NCBI GenBank assembly: GCA_010405405.1
Contig: MU004233.1
Coordinates: 2,699,882-2,763,881, forward strand
Reading direction: 5' to 3'
From: Microthyrium microscopicum
Taxonomy: Eukaryota > Ascomycota > Dothideomycetes > Microthyriales > Microthyriaceae
DNA: 64,000 nt
The notes beneath the pieces were generated by a model. It was given only the letters and a program-made list of their open reading frames with translations. It had not been told where the DNA came from and searched no databases. Position numbers and translations under genes: made by a program. Below are positions 11,520 through 60,127 of this stretch, in pieces (positions within the stretch are counted from its first letter, which is position 1; each line of letters begins with the position of its first letter).

Positions 11520-14127
11520 CTACACCGGAACACAAACAACATCATCAAATGCCACTGACGCTGTTCCGCCCGAGATATCTGTATATGTTGCTGACAACAC
11601 TAGGTTGGTGTTTGGACTTCCTGTCGTCAAAGTGCCATTGTAGAACGACCATCCGTTCGCATCCGTGCTCACGAGACTTGGACTATAGCCACTGACCATT
11701 AGGCTCGTGGTGATGGAACCAGTGGCCAATCCCATGGTGACTTTGGAGTAGTAGCTGCAGGCGAGCACGGTTCCCATTGGCACGTTGGCCAACAGTTGCT
11801 GAGATTGGGAGGATGCTTGGCCGCTGATGGTGGTCACGTTCCATGTCAGGCATGCAGATCCACAGTGGCAGCTGGAGGCGGAGCCAAGTCCTTCGCAGCG
11901 AGGGGCGGATCCATCGTTGGTCCAGGGGAGTTGGCCGAGTTCGAAGCCGGGATTAGTGATTATGTTGCCGGAAGTCGAGTTACCGGCAAGGCAGGTTGGT
12001 GTAGCGGAGGCGGAGGATGATGAGGCTGATGAGCTGGACGAGATGGTAGAGGTGGCGTTGAGGGATGCGCTTGAGGAGATGGTGCTGGAGAAGCTAGAGA
12101 TGGTGGAGTTGGCGATGACAGTGCTAGAGGAGAGGGATGAGGAGCTGGTGATGGTGGCATTCGCGGAGAAAGAGGACGATGGGAAGCTCGAAGTTGCTGT
12201 GCTTGAGACGGAAGAGCTCTCGGACGAGGAAACAGTGCTGGCGACGGTAGAGCTATCAGATGAGGAAGAGCTAGCGGTTGAGGAAACAGTGCTTGATACT
12301 GAAGAGCTCTCGGAAGATGAGGCAGTGCTTGATGCTGAAGAACTCTCGGAGGATGATGCCGAAGAGGAGGCTGTAGACGACGATGCTGAGGATGAGATGT
12401 CTGAAGACGAGAGGGAGGAGGAGCTGGAAGCAACACTGGAAGAGTCCGATGAAGAGACTGTGCTGGATACTGAGCTAGACGAATCCGTTGAACTACTCAA
12501 AGAAGCCGAGCTAGTGACTGAACTAGAAACATCGGAGCTGCTGCTAGAGGACGCTGTGCTGGTCACTGAGCTAGAGCTGTCGGTGGACGATGCAGTGGAA
12601 GAAACCTCAGATGATGAAGCGGTGCTTGTGGCCGAAGACGTCTCAGAGGATGACACTGTGGATGATACATCGGAGGAGCTCGAGGTCACAGTGCTGCTGA
12701 CTGAGCTGGAAACATCAGAGCTGCTAGAAGTCGCGGTGCTGCTGGCTGAGCTGGATACGTCGGAGGAAGATGCTGAGCTGGAAACCGTTGACGAAACCTC
12801 GGATGACGAAGCTGAGCTGGAAGCAGTGGACGACACTTCTGAGGACGAAGAAACAGTGGATGAGACCTCTGAGGACGAAGAAACAGTGGATGAGACGACT
12901 GAAGAAGAAGCAGTGGAAGAGACCTCCGAGGATGAAGCAGTGGATGAAGCAGTGGAAGAGACCTCCGATGATGAGACCTCGCTGGATGAAACACTTGACG
13001 ACAAAGCGCTAGAAGATACCGCGCTGGAAGAGACTGCACTTGAAGACACAGCAGATGAAGTCGCACTTGAGGAGACCACTGCGCTTGAGCTAGCACTAGA
13101 AGATGCCGTAGATGTAGCCGAAGAGCTCGCTACCGAGCTTGTAGCCGGGAAACATGCGATATCGTAGAAAGCATATGGGCTCGCGGTGTTGGAATTGAAG
13201 TTTCCAGCAACAGCGCTCGTGTAGAGAAGACAATCAGTGGAACCAAAAGCGAAAGAGACACAGCTGGATTGTCCGTGGCAAAGAACAGCACAGGCAGCAG
13301 CATCAGCGATACCTCCGAGAAAGTCAAAGGCAGCTGGGTTTTGCATGTCATAACCGGCAGAGCCGCACTGTGCCGTTACGGATGGCACCGCGCTGGATGA
13401 AGCGATAACACTGGAGGACTTTGCGACGCTGGAGATTATGCTGGAAGTTGGCTTAACAGAGCTTGACTTCGCAGAGCTTGAAGCCGGGACGGAACTGGTC
13501 TTGACGGAGCTGGAAGCCTTGACGGAGCTGGAAGTGTTGACGGAGCTGGAAGCCTTGATAGAGCTGGAAGTCTTCACCGAGCTTGAAGCCTTGATAGAGC
13601 TGGAAGTCTTCACCGAGCTTGAAGCCTTTACTGAAGAAGAAGCCTTGGCCGATGACGAGGGTTTGATGGAACTGGATGCGGAGCCTTTGCATGTATCTCC
13701 AGTGCCTCCGAAGCCGACTTGACAACCAGTACCGCAATATGAGGACGAAGTGCCACAGAATCCGAAGGAACTACAGCATCCAGTCATACATCTTTTTGTT
13801 CCACCGCATGTTCCATCAGTCGAAACCTTGAGGGTACTGCTAGATCCGGCAGCTGTTGTTGTTCCAGTGCTTGAACATGTGCCGAATGTTGAATCGCAAC
13901 CGGAGCCACAGTAATCTGAAGATGTACCACTATGAAAAAGGTCAGTCATTTATCAGTCGCATACCATACCATGATACGCACCAATATCCGTAAGCCGAAC
14001 AGCACTGTCCAGTTGGACATGTAAGTTTTTTACTTCCACCACATTGACCATTAGTAGAGACAGCACCAAAAACCGAATTAAAGCAAAGAGCAAGCGCCAA
14101 AAGCGAAACCGAACTAAAAGACTTCAT
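11520..14127 (-). CDS. Secreted Ser-rich cell-wall protein with two CBM18 (hevein-like) domains
   Basis: Exon 1 is 14127-13982 and exon 2 is 13929-11520; the 52-nt intron splits the first hevein motif. The product is 851 aa. A signal peptide (MKSFSSVSLLALALCFNSVFG) leads to two chitin-recognition modules: CCSAYGYCGTSSDYCGSGC (about 43-61) and CCSSFGFCGTSSSYCGTGC (about 100-118). A Lys-dotted SSSVK/SSSIK linker follows. Next is a PAN/apple-like Cys region (about 238-310, with CAVLCHGQSSCVSFAFG). Then about 370 residues are almost only Ser with Ala/Val/Thr. The protein ends in a globular domain beginning NPGFELGQLPW, resembling CBM4/9-type folds. It is likely a heavily O-glycosylated, chitin-attached wall or matrix protein. 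No GPI signal is visible. The low-complexity tract makes length polymorphism likely. Confidence 0.85.
13555..13626 (-). repeat. Two exact tandem copies of a 36-bp unit in the CBM18 gene
   Basis: Positions 13555-13590 and 13591-13626 are identical 36-mers encoding the Lys-dotted Ser linker between the chitin-binding modules and the PAN-like region. Related but diverged units flank them. This shows recent slippage or unequal exchange within the coding sequence, in frame. Confidence 0.85.
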
Positions 14128-38882: not shown

Positions 38883-39300
38883 AGCGCTTTGGTTTCGGAA
38901 ATTTTGAATTGTTGCTAATAGGGATGGGATTGTTTGGTGTTTCTGGAGCGAATTTGTAGCGTTGCATTTGCACTTTAGTTTGATATAAATTGTAATTCAG
39001 TCATACATACTACTCTCATTTGTCTATCTTAATCACTATCATGATTATCATGCTACGATATATCAATATCATCACAGTTGAATTAAGAGCTTTGAGTTCC
39101 AGGAATTAGACACACATATAAACACACTTGCTCTCATCCAATACTCCACTTCTGAGCAAGAGATAACGAGTTGTCATTAGGACCTGAGGTTTGAAATGTT
39201 CTCTGAATCTACTGACAGCAAAAACAGTCCCCAAAATTCCTTCTCGTACATATTGTGCAGTGAACTCAGCAGGCCCGGAATCATGTTTTTGCAATGATAA
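38883..39300. other. Intergenic, 3' flank
   Basis: This is the 3' flank of the large Gln-rich gene. It is AT-leaning with no supported ORF. It ends where the foldback element begins. Confidence 0.4.
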
Positions 39301-39522
39301 GCACCCAACGGCATTGCAAAATCAATGGCGTACTCCCATCAACTCTGATGGCTACCACCAGCGCTGCTAACCAAAAAGTGCTTGATTTCCGCGTAGCTGA
39401 TACCCATTCCCAATCCGAACCCCCTTTATGGCAGATAAAGCACTCGACAACAGTTCGTAGCATCTGGGCGCCATCAGAGTTGATGGGAGTATGCCATTTA
39501 TTCTACCATGCCGTTGAAGCAC
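39301..39522. mobile_element. Foldback/MITE-like element, about 220 bp
   Basis: The arms 39301-39351 and about 39470-39522 are imperfect reverse complements. The inner 25 bases are nearly exact (ACTCCCATCAACTCTGATGG) and the outer part diverged (around CAACGGCAT). Weaker similarity continues inward around AGTGCTT. The small ORFs on both strands here arise from the inverted repeat. Each arm carries the palindrome CCATC-N6-GATGG (39336-39351 and 39471-39486) that also marks the velvet-gene introns. Target duplications are not evident. Confidence 0.7.
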
Positions 39523-39645
39523 CAAGAGTGAAGGACGGCGATCCGAAATTGTAGATGGAGTTCGTGAGACAGGCAACAGGGTTGTAATTCTTGTCTCACC
39601 AACACGACTCCAAACTGGGGTTCGCTAAGCATTAGCGCTGAAATC

Positions 39646-46246: not shown

Positions 46247-46436
46247 CTGAAATCTGTCAGTATAAGATCATCCTTGGAGCACTTGAAACCGTAAAAACAC
46301 CATCGCATTCGATGGCGGCCACAGCACTTGATCAGATACGGCTTTCATGGGAGCCATCGAATGCGATGGGAGATAAGGTGTTTTTGATTTCGTTGCATGT
46401 TGTCAAAAAATGTGATTCAGCACGGCAGAATCTCAC
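46247..46436 (-). repeat. Introner-like element A (190 nt, 3' of velvet stop)
   Basis: Minus strand: begins GTGAGATTCTGCC and ends with branch TACTGACAG then ATTTCAG. It contains the palindrome CCATC-N6-GATGG twice (46300-46315 and 46354-46369). Its 5' part aligns with element B (both carry AATCACA, TTTGAC, ATCAAAAACAC or TCCAAAAACAC, then the palindrome). Splicing is inferred from signals only. Confidence 0.7.
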
Positions 46437-46680
46437 CTGGATTTGAACATTGTCAGTATAGGTTTACAGTCAAAGATGTCAAATAACCATGAAATACGCC
46501 TCAAAACACCAGTGAAGTTGCTGTGGTCATAATATGGTTTCGCCATCGTACTCGGTGGGAACCATAGCACTCGATGTGAAACGTATGCTATGGTCGCCAT
46601 CGAGTGTGATGGAGAAATCGTGTTTTTGGATCCATTGGATATCGTCAAAGAATGTGTGATTTCACACGGGGAATTCTTAC
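46437..46680 (-). repeat. Introner-like element B (244 nt, abuts element A)
   Basis: Minus strand: begins GTAAGAATTCCCCG and ends TATACTGACA...AAATCCAG, immediately followed by the GTGAG of element A. It contains palindrome copies at 46543-46558 (one mismatch) and 46597-46612. It is homologous to A in donor, centre and branch region. The pair forms an AG|GT junction with a zero-length exon. Confidence 0.7.
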
Positions 46681-46710
46681 CTCTTAACGCCAATATGTGG
46701 TAGGCGATAT

Positions 46711-48494
46711 CTACTGCCAATTCTCGGCTCCAGACAACTCCTCATTCTGATCATCATGTTCGCTGGCTGCGGGAGTTTCCTTATTTTTCCGCATAGGCAG
46801 TTTCACACCTTGCGCGTTCAAGGCTCGGGTGAGCTCGGTACTTTTCATCATTCCAGGAAACTTCTTAGCCGTGTAGACTTCGAAAACAGCACTAAAGCAG
46901 CTGACCGGGACGGGATTTTTGTCGCGCTGTTGGCCATCCCAAAATTTCTGTGGCCCTAGTCCAGCTATGTTTATCAAGGTGAATTTTAGACGAAATTTTC
47001 CGTCCTTGCGCACCGAAATATCTGCAAAGGGGAACAAGATAAGGCCGCCAAAAAGTTCGGCAGTCACATGCCGTTGTCCAATGATATTGTCAGTGTACTC
47101 CCCGACGTTTGGCTCTAGCATGTTGACAATTTGTGTCCTCGCATATCCGGATTGGCCGGGCATCGCATTCATGACCATTCGCTGCCCTGCGTCGCGGAAC
47201 GGCGCAGGGGGAAACGAGGCTGTGCTGCTCGCACCGATACTCCTGGTGGAAGTACTACCTGAAAATAAGTCAGTTTAAGATGGAGGAAGAGTGGAACTTA
47301 AGCCGCCACACGCTGAAGCCATGACATGATCTTCTCAGGATGAAATCCCATTGCAATTTATGGGACCCATCCAGTACGATGGGAGCCATCAAATACTATA
47401 GAAAATCAAGCGCTATGGAAGCCATATGCCGCGATGGGAACAACCAATGGCACTAGCTATTGAGGGAAAGTGGGTAAAAGTGATGTTACAAGAGGAAATC
47501 TCACAGGAAGTTCTGCCACAGCAGAGAAGACTGGCAGGCTGCATGCTAGATGCGTCGATTATATCGACCGCCACGATGAATTGCGAGATATCAATCTCGC
47601 TGACAGGTACTACCTCCCACGGTCCGAAAGCATTAGACCACACACAGAGTGCGACAATAGGAGCGTGGGAGATAGGCCTCCTGTCTTTGTCGCCGAAGCC
47701 GCACATGCGGGCCCGGACGGGTTCTTGCAAAACGCTCAAGGTATACGCATGATCTCCTAGAGTACTGGTGACACTGCTGGGGACACTGCTTGGCACAGTG
47801 GGCACTGGAAACTATTAGCCTTATCACCAGATCGCACTTTATGACTCCCATCAAGTGTGATGGGAACCATCAAATGTCTTGAAACAGCATTGCTCGATGT
47901 GATAAATGATAGAATTAGCACAAGATGAGTTTTTTTTTACATATGCGAGAGCATCATGTGGCAGCCATCGAATGCGATGGCAGCCATCAGATGTGCTCGC
48001 AATGTCTCATCAACTTCAGATAACAGAGAGAAACGGAGAGATCAGGGTACCGTGAAGCCCCGCCGAACGCGCCAAATGATATTTTTAGTGCAAAATAGCT
48101 CACAAAATGGGATGAGGGGAACTTGGGAGCGTTTGATATTTCTACCAAGGAAGCAGATGGTCACCATCGAATGCGATGGGAGCCAGGTAGTGTGTTGTGA
48201 TCATCGGGGTTTGCTGCGAAACATTTTCTTTAAGACGAGAGCGGACTTACTGCTACTGGGGTTGAAGCCATTAAGATGGCTCAAGTCGTCAGGAAAGTTG
48301 AAGTGGTTGACACCAGAGCCATCGTCAAACATGATATTGTTGTCATTGTTGTAATTTGGAAGTAGGTCTTGGGAATTCGGATCGAGCGTGACAGTCAGGT
48401 CTTGTGTAGTAATTGAAAGACTTGGATCTTCAGAGTAGGGATTGCTAGGCACATTGTTCACGTCGAGTTCGTTCCAGAGAGGTGCATAAGCCAT
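46711..48494 (-). CDS. Velvet-domain regulator, VelB-like
   Basis: Exons are 48494-48251, 47804-47505 and 47258-46711, all in phase; the product is 363 aa. The first 100 residues are an acidic, Asn/Ser-rich leader unlike typical VelB. The velvet domain then starts with LSVLQEPVRARMCGFGDKDRRPI, the signature of VelB-type proteins. It continues with VSEIDISQFIVAVDII. After a variable insert it resumes with FGGLILFPFADISVRKDGKFRLKFTLI and ends in FSAVFEVYTAKKFPGMMKST and GVKLPMRK. Velvet proteins form nuclear dimers (VelB with VeA or VosA) that control sporulation and secondary metabolism. The divergent leader and insert suggest a paralogue, not the canonical VelB. Both introns (446 and 246 nt) are several times the local norm and carry the introner palindrome. 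Confidence 0.85.
47259..47504 (-). repeat. Introner-like element in velvet intron 2 (246 nt)
   Basis: Minus strand: begins GTGAGATTTCCTCTTG and ends AAACTGACTTATTTTCAG, matching element A at both ends (GTGAGATT; TACTGAC...TTTCAG). The palindrome is at 47367-47382. A diverged half-copy (CCATAGCGCTTGATTT type) lies nearby. Confidence 0.75.
47805..48250 (-). repeat. Compound introner-like element in velvet intron 1 (446 nt)
   Basis: Minus strand: donor GTAAGTCC, branch GCTAATAG, acceptor TTTCCAG. It carries three palindrome copies (48164-48179, 47965-47980, 47848-47863), the first two identical (CCATCGAATGCGATGG on plus). The size and multiple copies suggest nested or tandem insertion. Confidence 0.7.
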
Positions 48495-59680: not shown

Positions 59681-60127
59681 GCTTATGTTATAATCTTGAG
59701 TAGTAACTTTGAGCTCAGTGGCTGGAATATGCCATATAATCGATGGGCAAAAAGCTTCCCGTGGCCCCATCAGTTTCAATGGCTCCCGCGACCACTACTA
59801 GACAACAAGTGCTATAATGTTCCATTGCACCCGACAAACTGTGCCGGCTGAAAGCTTTCTATGGTGCTAAGCGCACTCGATACTAGTGTGTATCGTGTAA
59901 GTGCCATCGAAGTCGACGGGTCACGCTAGTCATTTTGTCCATCGATTATTCTGGTACCATTTGAGATATGTACCATTTTTCAGATTTGAGGAGCCATATA
60001 AGCAAGCTATTGTTCGGAGGCATGGATTCAACCATTTTCTCTCTCTTGAAATATTGCGAACTCTGCGGCATGATTCAATATCTCGGTTTTCGCCTACGAA
60101 GTTCAACCCACCTCCGCTAACATCAAT
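59681..60127. other. Intergenic, with two possible relics of the introner palindrome
   Basis: This is 447 bp. CCATCAGTTTCAATGG (59767-59782) and CCATCGAAGTCGACGG (59903-59918) resemble the CCATC-N6-GATGG palindrome with one mismatch each in the right arm, as old copies would. No donor or acceptor pair was recognised. Confidence 0.35.

Follow-up and report, generated by a model that had tools for sequence, protein, structure and literature searches.

Introns resembling old copies of an introner-like family with a MITE-like core in a velvet gene of Microthyrium microscopicum

The velvet gene and its palindrome-bearing introns

The leaf-litter fungus Microthyrium microscopicum belongs to the dothideomycete order Microthyriales. 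The stretch analyzed here, referred to as the window, covers 64 kb of its genome (C4:2699882-2763881; genome of 36.9 Mb in 20 contigs) and encodes a velvet-domain protein as well as a calcium ATPase. The velvet gene lies on the minus strand, with its ATG at 48494 and a 363-aa frame which stops at 46711 once two introns are removed (Table 1). The Pfam Velvet domain is recognized in residues 102-340 of the spliced model (E 5e-52) and crosses the junction of intron 2 but not that of intron 1. No database protein of comparable length matches the model closely: the best is an M. microscopicum protein that is encoded on a different contig and is 35% identical, and the gene is therefore probably unannotated in its 363-aa spliced form.

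A sequence-only reading of the locus had reported seven exact copies of the palindrome CCATC-N6-GATGG, an excess over chance, in the two coding introns and in two intron-like segments behind the stop codon (segments A and B), and had proposed that these segments of 190-446 nt represent one introner-like element. All seven palindromes were found in those segments (three in intron 1, one in intron 2, one in A and two in B), the window holds nine where shuffles predict 0.07, and the measured lengths agree. A GTAAGA start had been listed among the intron ends; intron 1 instead begins GTAAGTCC. The proposal of a single element stood for intron 2, A and B, which are full-length copies of the family described below, and not for intron 1, where matches to the family are restricted to fragments.

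The other two palindromes in the window, at 39336 and 39471, are the arms of one MITE of a family designated Mm1. Genome-wide there are 538 occurrences of CCATC-N6-GATGG compared with 13 of the reversed pattern. The notion that every palindrome marks an introner was rejected: the palindrome alone is no introner mark because many occurrences belong to MITEs, lying in the families Mm1 and Mm2 or in a tandem hairpin array.

Global alignment of intron 2 with the family consensus scored 29.5 (shuffle mean -21.9, sd 5.8), and the family profile matches the inner part only of this intron (33 bits). Intron 1 may be degenerate or composite; a consensus identity of 77% obtained for it was discarded because it came from a global alignment forced upon the entire 446 nt. 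Used as a single genome query, introns 1 and 2 matched only themselves. Segment A is presumed to be a 3' UTR intron, and zero bases separate it from segment B, the border reading CCAG|GTGAG.

Table 1. Coordinates of the features discussed (window positions unless a contig or locus is given)
Feature	Position	Strand	Remarks
Velvet-domain gene, 363 aa	46711..48494	-	Spliced model, Pfam Velvet
Velvet coding exons (3)	48494-48251, 47804-47505, 47258-46711	-	Spliced model
Velvet intron 1, 446 nt	47805..48250	-	Spliced model; three palindromes; family matches in fragments only
Velvet intron 2, 246 nt	47259..47504	-	Diverged full-length introner copy, 65% to consensus (global alignment)
Segment A, 244 nt	46437..46680	-	Full-length introner copy, 77% to consensus; behind velvet stop codon
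Segment B, 190 nt	46247..46436	-	Full-length introner copy, 82% to consensus; abuts A
Hairpin core of segment B	46300..46369	-	Two complementary arms, each a CCATC-N6-GATGG palindrome
Velvet palindromes (7)	46300, 46354, 46597, 47367, 47848, 47965, 48164		CCATC-N6-GATGG
Mm1 MITE copy	39306..39516	+	Inverted repeats of 46-47 bp; flanked by AAGCACC at 39299-39305 and 39517-39523
Diverged Mm1 relative	59747..59938	+	48 bits
L042 gene, second intron, 203 nt	L042:903-1105 = C2:1261407-1261609	-	Almost whole MITE
L043 MFS transporter gene, about 3 kb	C3:1078752-1081840		Seven introner-type introns of different ages
Fused two-module loci	L017, L029, L033, L045, L048, L063		

An introner-like family and its behavior as introns

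The family consists of introner-like elements of about 221 nt (GTAAGATTTCCCCG...TACTGACAAATTCCAG) located in unrelated genes. In the proposed anatomy, consensus positions of about 1-21 form a 5' cap that contains the donor, about 22-182 an inverted-repeat module with the palindromic hairpin, and about 183-221 a 3' cap with the branch site and acceptor. A genome search with A and B together gave 48 matches including the query itself; among the 47 others, 12 begin within 3 nt of a donor and one spans donor to acceptor. In a 33-row alignment, which includes the window's own A and B twice over (two rows, L016), likeness extends from GTAAGATT to the acceptor and the exons outside are unrelated. A profile built from 51 copies made 129 matches in the 72 stretches searched and, at E up to 1, none in reversed sequence. 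At least 75 bits were scored by 67 of these matches, 41 with both ends in the model range and 26 without a model end; in 38 of the 41, a GT was present no more than 4 nt from one model end and an AG no more than 6 nt from the other, the remaining three being without GT or AG.

These 38 copies are 171-244 nt long and end in CAG (27 copies), TAG (7), AAG (3) or GAG (1), and 34 of them have a CTRAY branch-like motif within the last 40 nt. The ends of two copies with AAG acceptors (L021 and L023) look decayed. Independently derived 5' and 3' patterns occur at 34 and 51 places in the genome, respectively, and at none in controls; in 12 pairs the two lie 184-434 nt apart on the same strand, compared with 0.01 expected by chance. 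By capture-recapture the copy number is put, as a rough lower bound, at 145, and family matches lie on 17 of the 20 contigs. Overlapping loci were dropped before the counts (L004, L005, L012-L014, L016, L030, L035, L036 and L046). Identity over the 703 pairs of the 38 copies has a median of 71% and a maximum of 82%; no near-identical, recently multiplied copies were found among them, and since even the best pair is only 82% identical the burst that produced the family would be an old one.

Evidence that the copies behave as introns comes from the sequence around them. When the flanks of each copy were joined, the sense score exceeded the antisense score in 34 of the 38 (p 6e-7) and was at least 10 in 24, which fall into phases of 12, 8 and 4 copies. 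With matches of at least 35 bits gathered into 71 copy groups, 47 groups stand beside sense coding, 5 beside antisense coding and 19 beside none (p 1e-9 for 47:5); in two of the last, an open frame of coding-like character overlies the copies. Since the majority of copies were retrieved through likeness to A and B or through an inner hairpin pattern, the sense and antisense counts are no random sample of the genome. Of 19 introner introns examined with Pfam, 7 have a domain that reaches across the junction (an amino-acid permease, two MFS transporters, an acetyltransferase, an FHA domain, a kinase and an oxidoreductase); for the other 12, Pfam recognized either no domain at all or none that extended over the junction. 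The sequence-only reading had looked to a genome search for precise GT-AG ends and had regarded matches lying mostly outside introns as evidence against it; the ends of the 38 copies and the 47 sense groups both speak in its favor. The introner-like nature of the velvet introns, and with it their predicted splicing, is supported because matches start at donors and have GT/AG ends, a sense bias, open frames and intact Pfam domains. Membership in the introner family is well supported.

The MFS transporter gene at L043 has seven introner-type introns. Two of these are recognizable in part only and one runs off the end of the locus. The gene also contains three ordinary introns of 48-54 nt, and removal of nine of the ten introns yields an open frame of 526 aa, provided that one ordinary-intron acceptor is moved by 5 nt to keep the frame, a change with which the annotated protein concurs. 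That protein, P0241, also concurs with four of the introner splices, and the alignment with four related proteins is free of gaps at each of the four. Introner-like elements are longer than ordinary introns, and the 171-244 nt of the copies described here compare with the 48-54 nt of the three ordinary introns parsed at L043.

The insertion sites have a consistent character. A target-site duplication was found in none of the 38 copies, identity never exceeding expectation over the 25 offsets examined (-12 to +12), and such a duplication was rejected as positions on the donor side match those on the acceptor side no more than expected. G|G predominates at the exon borders: of the 24 copies with coding support, 20 have G as the final base of the upstream exon and 15 have G as the first base of the downstream exon. 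Four pairs of copies, namely A/B and those at L018, L060 and L025, abut with zero bases between them at an AG|GT border. Local duplication of copies within a gene was rejected, as none of 13 copies that share a locus has its nearest relative (among the 38) in that locus; A and B share 73% identity, and each ranks 15th of 37 for the other. In six loci two modules are fused near one junction that joins model positions 178-188 to 20-28 (Table 1), and L044 contains three units; fused modules inside single introns are likely the result of local duplication. Beside the fused introner dimer of L063 (C7:854300-855920) short units that correspond to the inner half of the hairpin are also repeated in tandem. 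Finally, the copy at L009 scores well (164 bits), is antisense, has decayed ends and, as read by eye, lies inside an apparent ordinary intron of a transporter-like gene.

MITE families and the hairpin core

Mm1 is a 213-bp element with 88-100% identity among the 40 of 212 candidates that were scored (108 matches counting both strands). A flanking direct repeat of 5-8 nt is present in 13 of 16 copies compared with 2% of permuted pairs, where repeats of at least 5 nt were accepted with a boundary wobble of 2 nt. Mm1 is a young MITE family; its element is short and has long TIRs, target-site duplications and many copies. A second MITE family, Mm2, is older (40 of 58 candidates scored). An introner copy at L070 (about C10:936155-936392) is apparently broken by an Mm2 MITE, and at L011 (C1:1362360-1365375) hairpin units that resemble MITEs form a tandem array, repeating about every 120 nt.

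The likeness between introners and these elements is confined to the hairpin and does not include the splice caps. With the palindromes masked, the introner consensus resembles the Mm1 consensus (p 0.0003), the MITE L098 and the L042 intron (p 0.0003 each), and the L087 copy of Mm1 (p 0.0005); the likeness was weak or absent for the unit of the tandem array (p 0.005), L001 (p 0.06), the window's Mm1 copy (p 0.10) and the Mm2 consensus (p 0.37). The introner profile matched 12 of 13 raw Mm1 rows, two of which represent one copy (E 4e-4 to 0.03), and none once palindromes were masked, while on the tandem array it gave E 3e-8 masked or unmasked. In the reverse direction, the Mm1 profile matches the introners L025, L063, L009 and L064 at E 3e-5 to 3e-4. 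For Mm2, the introner profile reached a best E of 5e-4 raw and 5e-3 masked on Mm2 copies, and the Mm2 profile a best E of 3e-5 on raw introners, with none at 0.01 when palindromes were masked. It is likely that the introner hairpin core shares ancestry with the palindromic MITEs of the same genome.

MITEs also occur within predicted introns. In the L042 gene a MITE makes up nearly all of the second intron, whose nucleotides 15-189 align with Mm1 18-197. As read from the sequence, its exon junctions form a near-repeat, CAGGTA/CAGGTT, with AGAC and GTCT just inside. These ends possibly reflect insertion of a MITE whose 6-bp duplication supplied both splice sites; alternatively, the near-repeat could be an ordinary proto-splice site. 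A search with this intron returned six partial relatives elsewhere, and so the intron is not itself a spread family. Across the MITE-intron junction the match to UNC-93 extends its reach from 349 to 363 of 379 while the score goes from 48.5 to 47.9 bits; reach is gained but not score, so the predicted L042 splice rests on the open frame. L037 differs in kind from L042: its MITE lies in a predicted 275-nt intron that would be roughly 60 nt without it, which fits insertion of a MITE into an existing intron. Judged by frame scores alone, 3 of 49 MITE matches make plausible introns.

The predicted RNA fold is unusually stable, the mean z being -2.73 for introners and -0.20 for their downstream flanks. 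The introner consensus is self-complementary over positions 25-171 of 221 and not at its ends, which carry splice signals in place of matching inverted repeats. In an alignment of 45 sense cores of exactly 73 nt, drawn from 106 rows extracted on both strands, arm pairing was hardly above that of shuffles (82.5% versus 81.8%, with 31 of 500 shuffles as high) and the covariation score was matched by 72 of 500 shuffles. The idea that selection holds the hairpin after insertion is unsupported by these pairing values. Pairing between the donor and branch regions does not exceed that expected from composition (6.37 versus 6.39 of 8).

Origin, mode of spread and relation to known introners

The origin of new spliceosomal introns is a long-standing question. 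The reading preferred here, given a probability of about 0.72, is that an introner-like family with a MITE-derived core multiplied through the genes of this fungus, probably by spreading as RNA, and that the introns of the velvet gene are old members of it. A MITE inserted in a gene would have become an intron, with L042 as a possible surviving example; a hairpin-bearing descendant would then have been copied as RNA and put back seamlessly in sense sites, for example by reverse splicing, with the hairpin perhaps protecting the excised RNA. A/B and the three other zero-gap pairs could have arisen when a copy inserted exactly at the border of an older one, which would leave the mRNA unchanged. 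The order of these steps, from MITE to MITE-born intron to introner, is inferred. Spread at the RNA level best fits the seamless ends, the sense bias and the G|G sites, and is judged slightly better than an even bet with DNA transposition as the main rival. The antisense copy at L009 is unexpected under reverse splicing into a sense transcript, and the preferred reading is also weakened by four further groups beside antisense coding and by the two groups with an open coding-like frame across them. A fuller history, in which a MITE became an intron through splice sites provided by its target-site duplication (as in L042) and a descendant gained strong caps and switched to seamless spread as RNA, is put forward tentatively, at somewhat below even odds.

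Alternatively, the family could have spread as DNA, a transposase inserting a spliceable non-autonomous transposon in both orientations and selection purging the bad or antisense insertions in exons. Such a history would account for the likeness of the hairpin to MITEs with flanking repeats, the self-complementary consensus, the antisense copy inside an intron and the intron that is nearly a whole MITE, yet it does not sit well with ends made of splice signals, the preference for G|G flanks and the missing duplication, where a single-G duplication would still be compatible; overall it is considered rather unlikely. Far less probable is that the palindromes are debris of MITEs that hit older, ordinary introns and that no mobile intron exists: L037 would be such an intron and the fragmentary velvet intron 1 may be another, but a MITE within an intron would not carry donor, branch site and acceptor, and the family is conserved from donor to acceptor between unrelated exons. 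That local duplication of introns within genes, and not genome-wide mobility, made the clusters and zero-gap pairs is scarcely credible, for while the L043 gene has up to seven introner-type introns and six loci have tandem modules with one recurrent junction, matches occur on most contigs and neither the locus-sharing copies nor A and B are each other's closest relatives.

The family preferred here, of old introners with a MITE-like core, can be compared with three known systems. The introner-like elements (ILEs) of Capnodiales (Fulvia, Dothistroma and Zymoseptoria), according to PMC4457414 and PMC8469720, are likewise spliceosomal introns of dothideomycetes present in many copies in unrelated genes, with seamless insertion and a symmetric or stably folding structure. 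The Microthyrium family differs in belonging to another order, in a hairpin core which resembles MITEs of its own genome, and in having more diverged copies, since active ILEs are described as 98-99% alike. PMC4457414 also describes Dothistroma ILEs that are much less alike, and the divergence in Microthyrium is therefore read as age and not as exclusion from the ILEs. Sister stwintrons and related canonical introns of Hypoxylaceae/Xylariaceae, as portrayed in PMC8469720 and PMC12403724, share with the present family the propagation of introns, long inverted repeats, seamless insertion and complex introns of two units. In the [D1,2] stwintrons an internal intron splits the donor of the external intron between G1 and U2, whereas the second Microthyrium copy abuts the donor from outside, leaving a zero-length exon; identity with [D1,2] stwintrons was rejected, as the four pairs abut AG|GT with zero bases between.

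The transposon-derived Introners of algae and other protists are also short non-autonomous elements that make introns, and the MITE-like L042 intron, where a junction repeat could supply both splice sites, resembles them. The main Microthyrium family differs in that it is without target-site duplication, and the 38 copies, none of which has one, do not show this mark of the DNA-transposon Introners which generate such duplications. A large survey (PMC9860276) ties most Introners to DNA transposons and sets ascomycete families apart as having no TIRs or TSDs. Literature titles and abstract openings contained no Microthyrium introners and no MITE-related ascomycete introners.

The likeness of the hairpin to MITEs offers a clue to the birth of new fungal introns. 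This genome combines repeat-flanked MITEs, an intron made up almost wholly of a MITE, and seamless introners with a similar hairpin, and with the three side by side the proposed transition from MITE to introner is directly testable. If true, an origin from MITEs would link the introners of ascomycetes with a DNA transposon and join, within one genome, the models of DNA-born and RNA-propagated introns. Introners also have an impact on annotation, as the velvet model is without a close match of similar length and the annotated transporter P0241 starts inside a degenerate introner. Among the other reading frames of the window, a long open frame at 11827-13167 lies antisense to a serine-rich repetitive frame (11520-13949) and is probably a by-product of codon bias.
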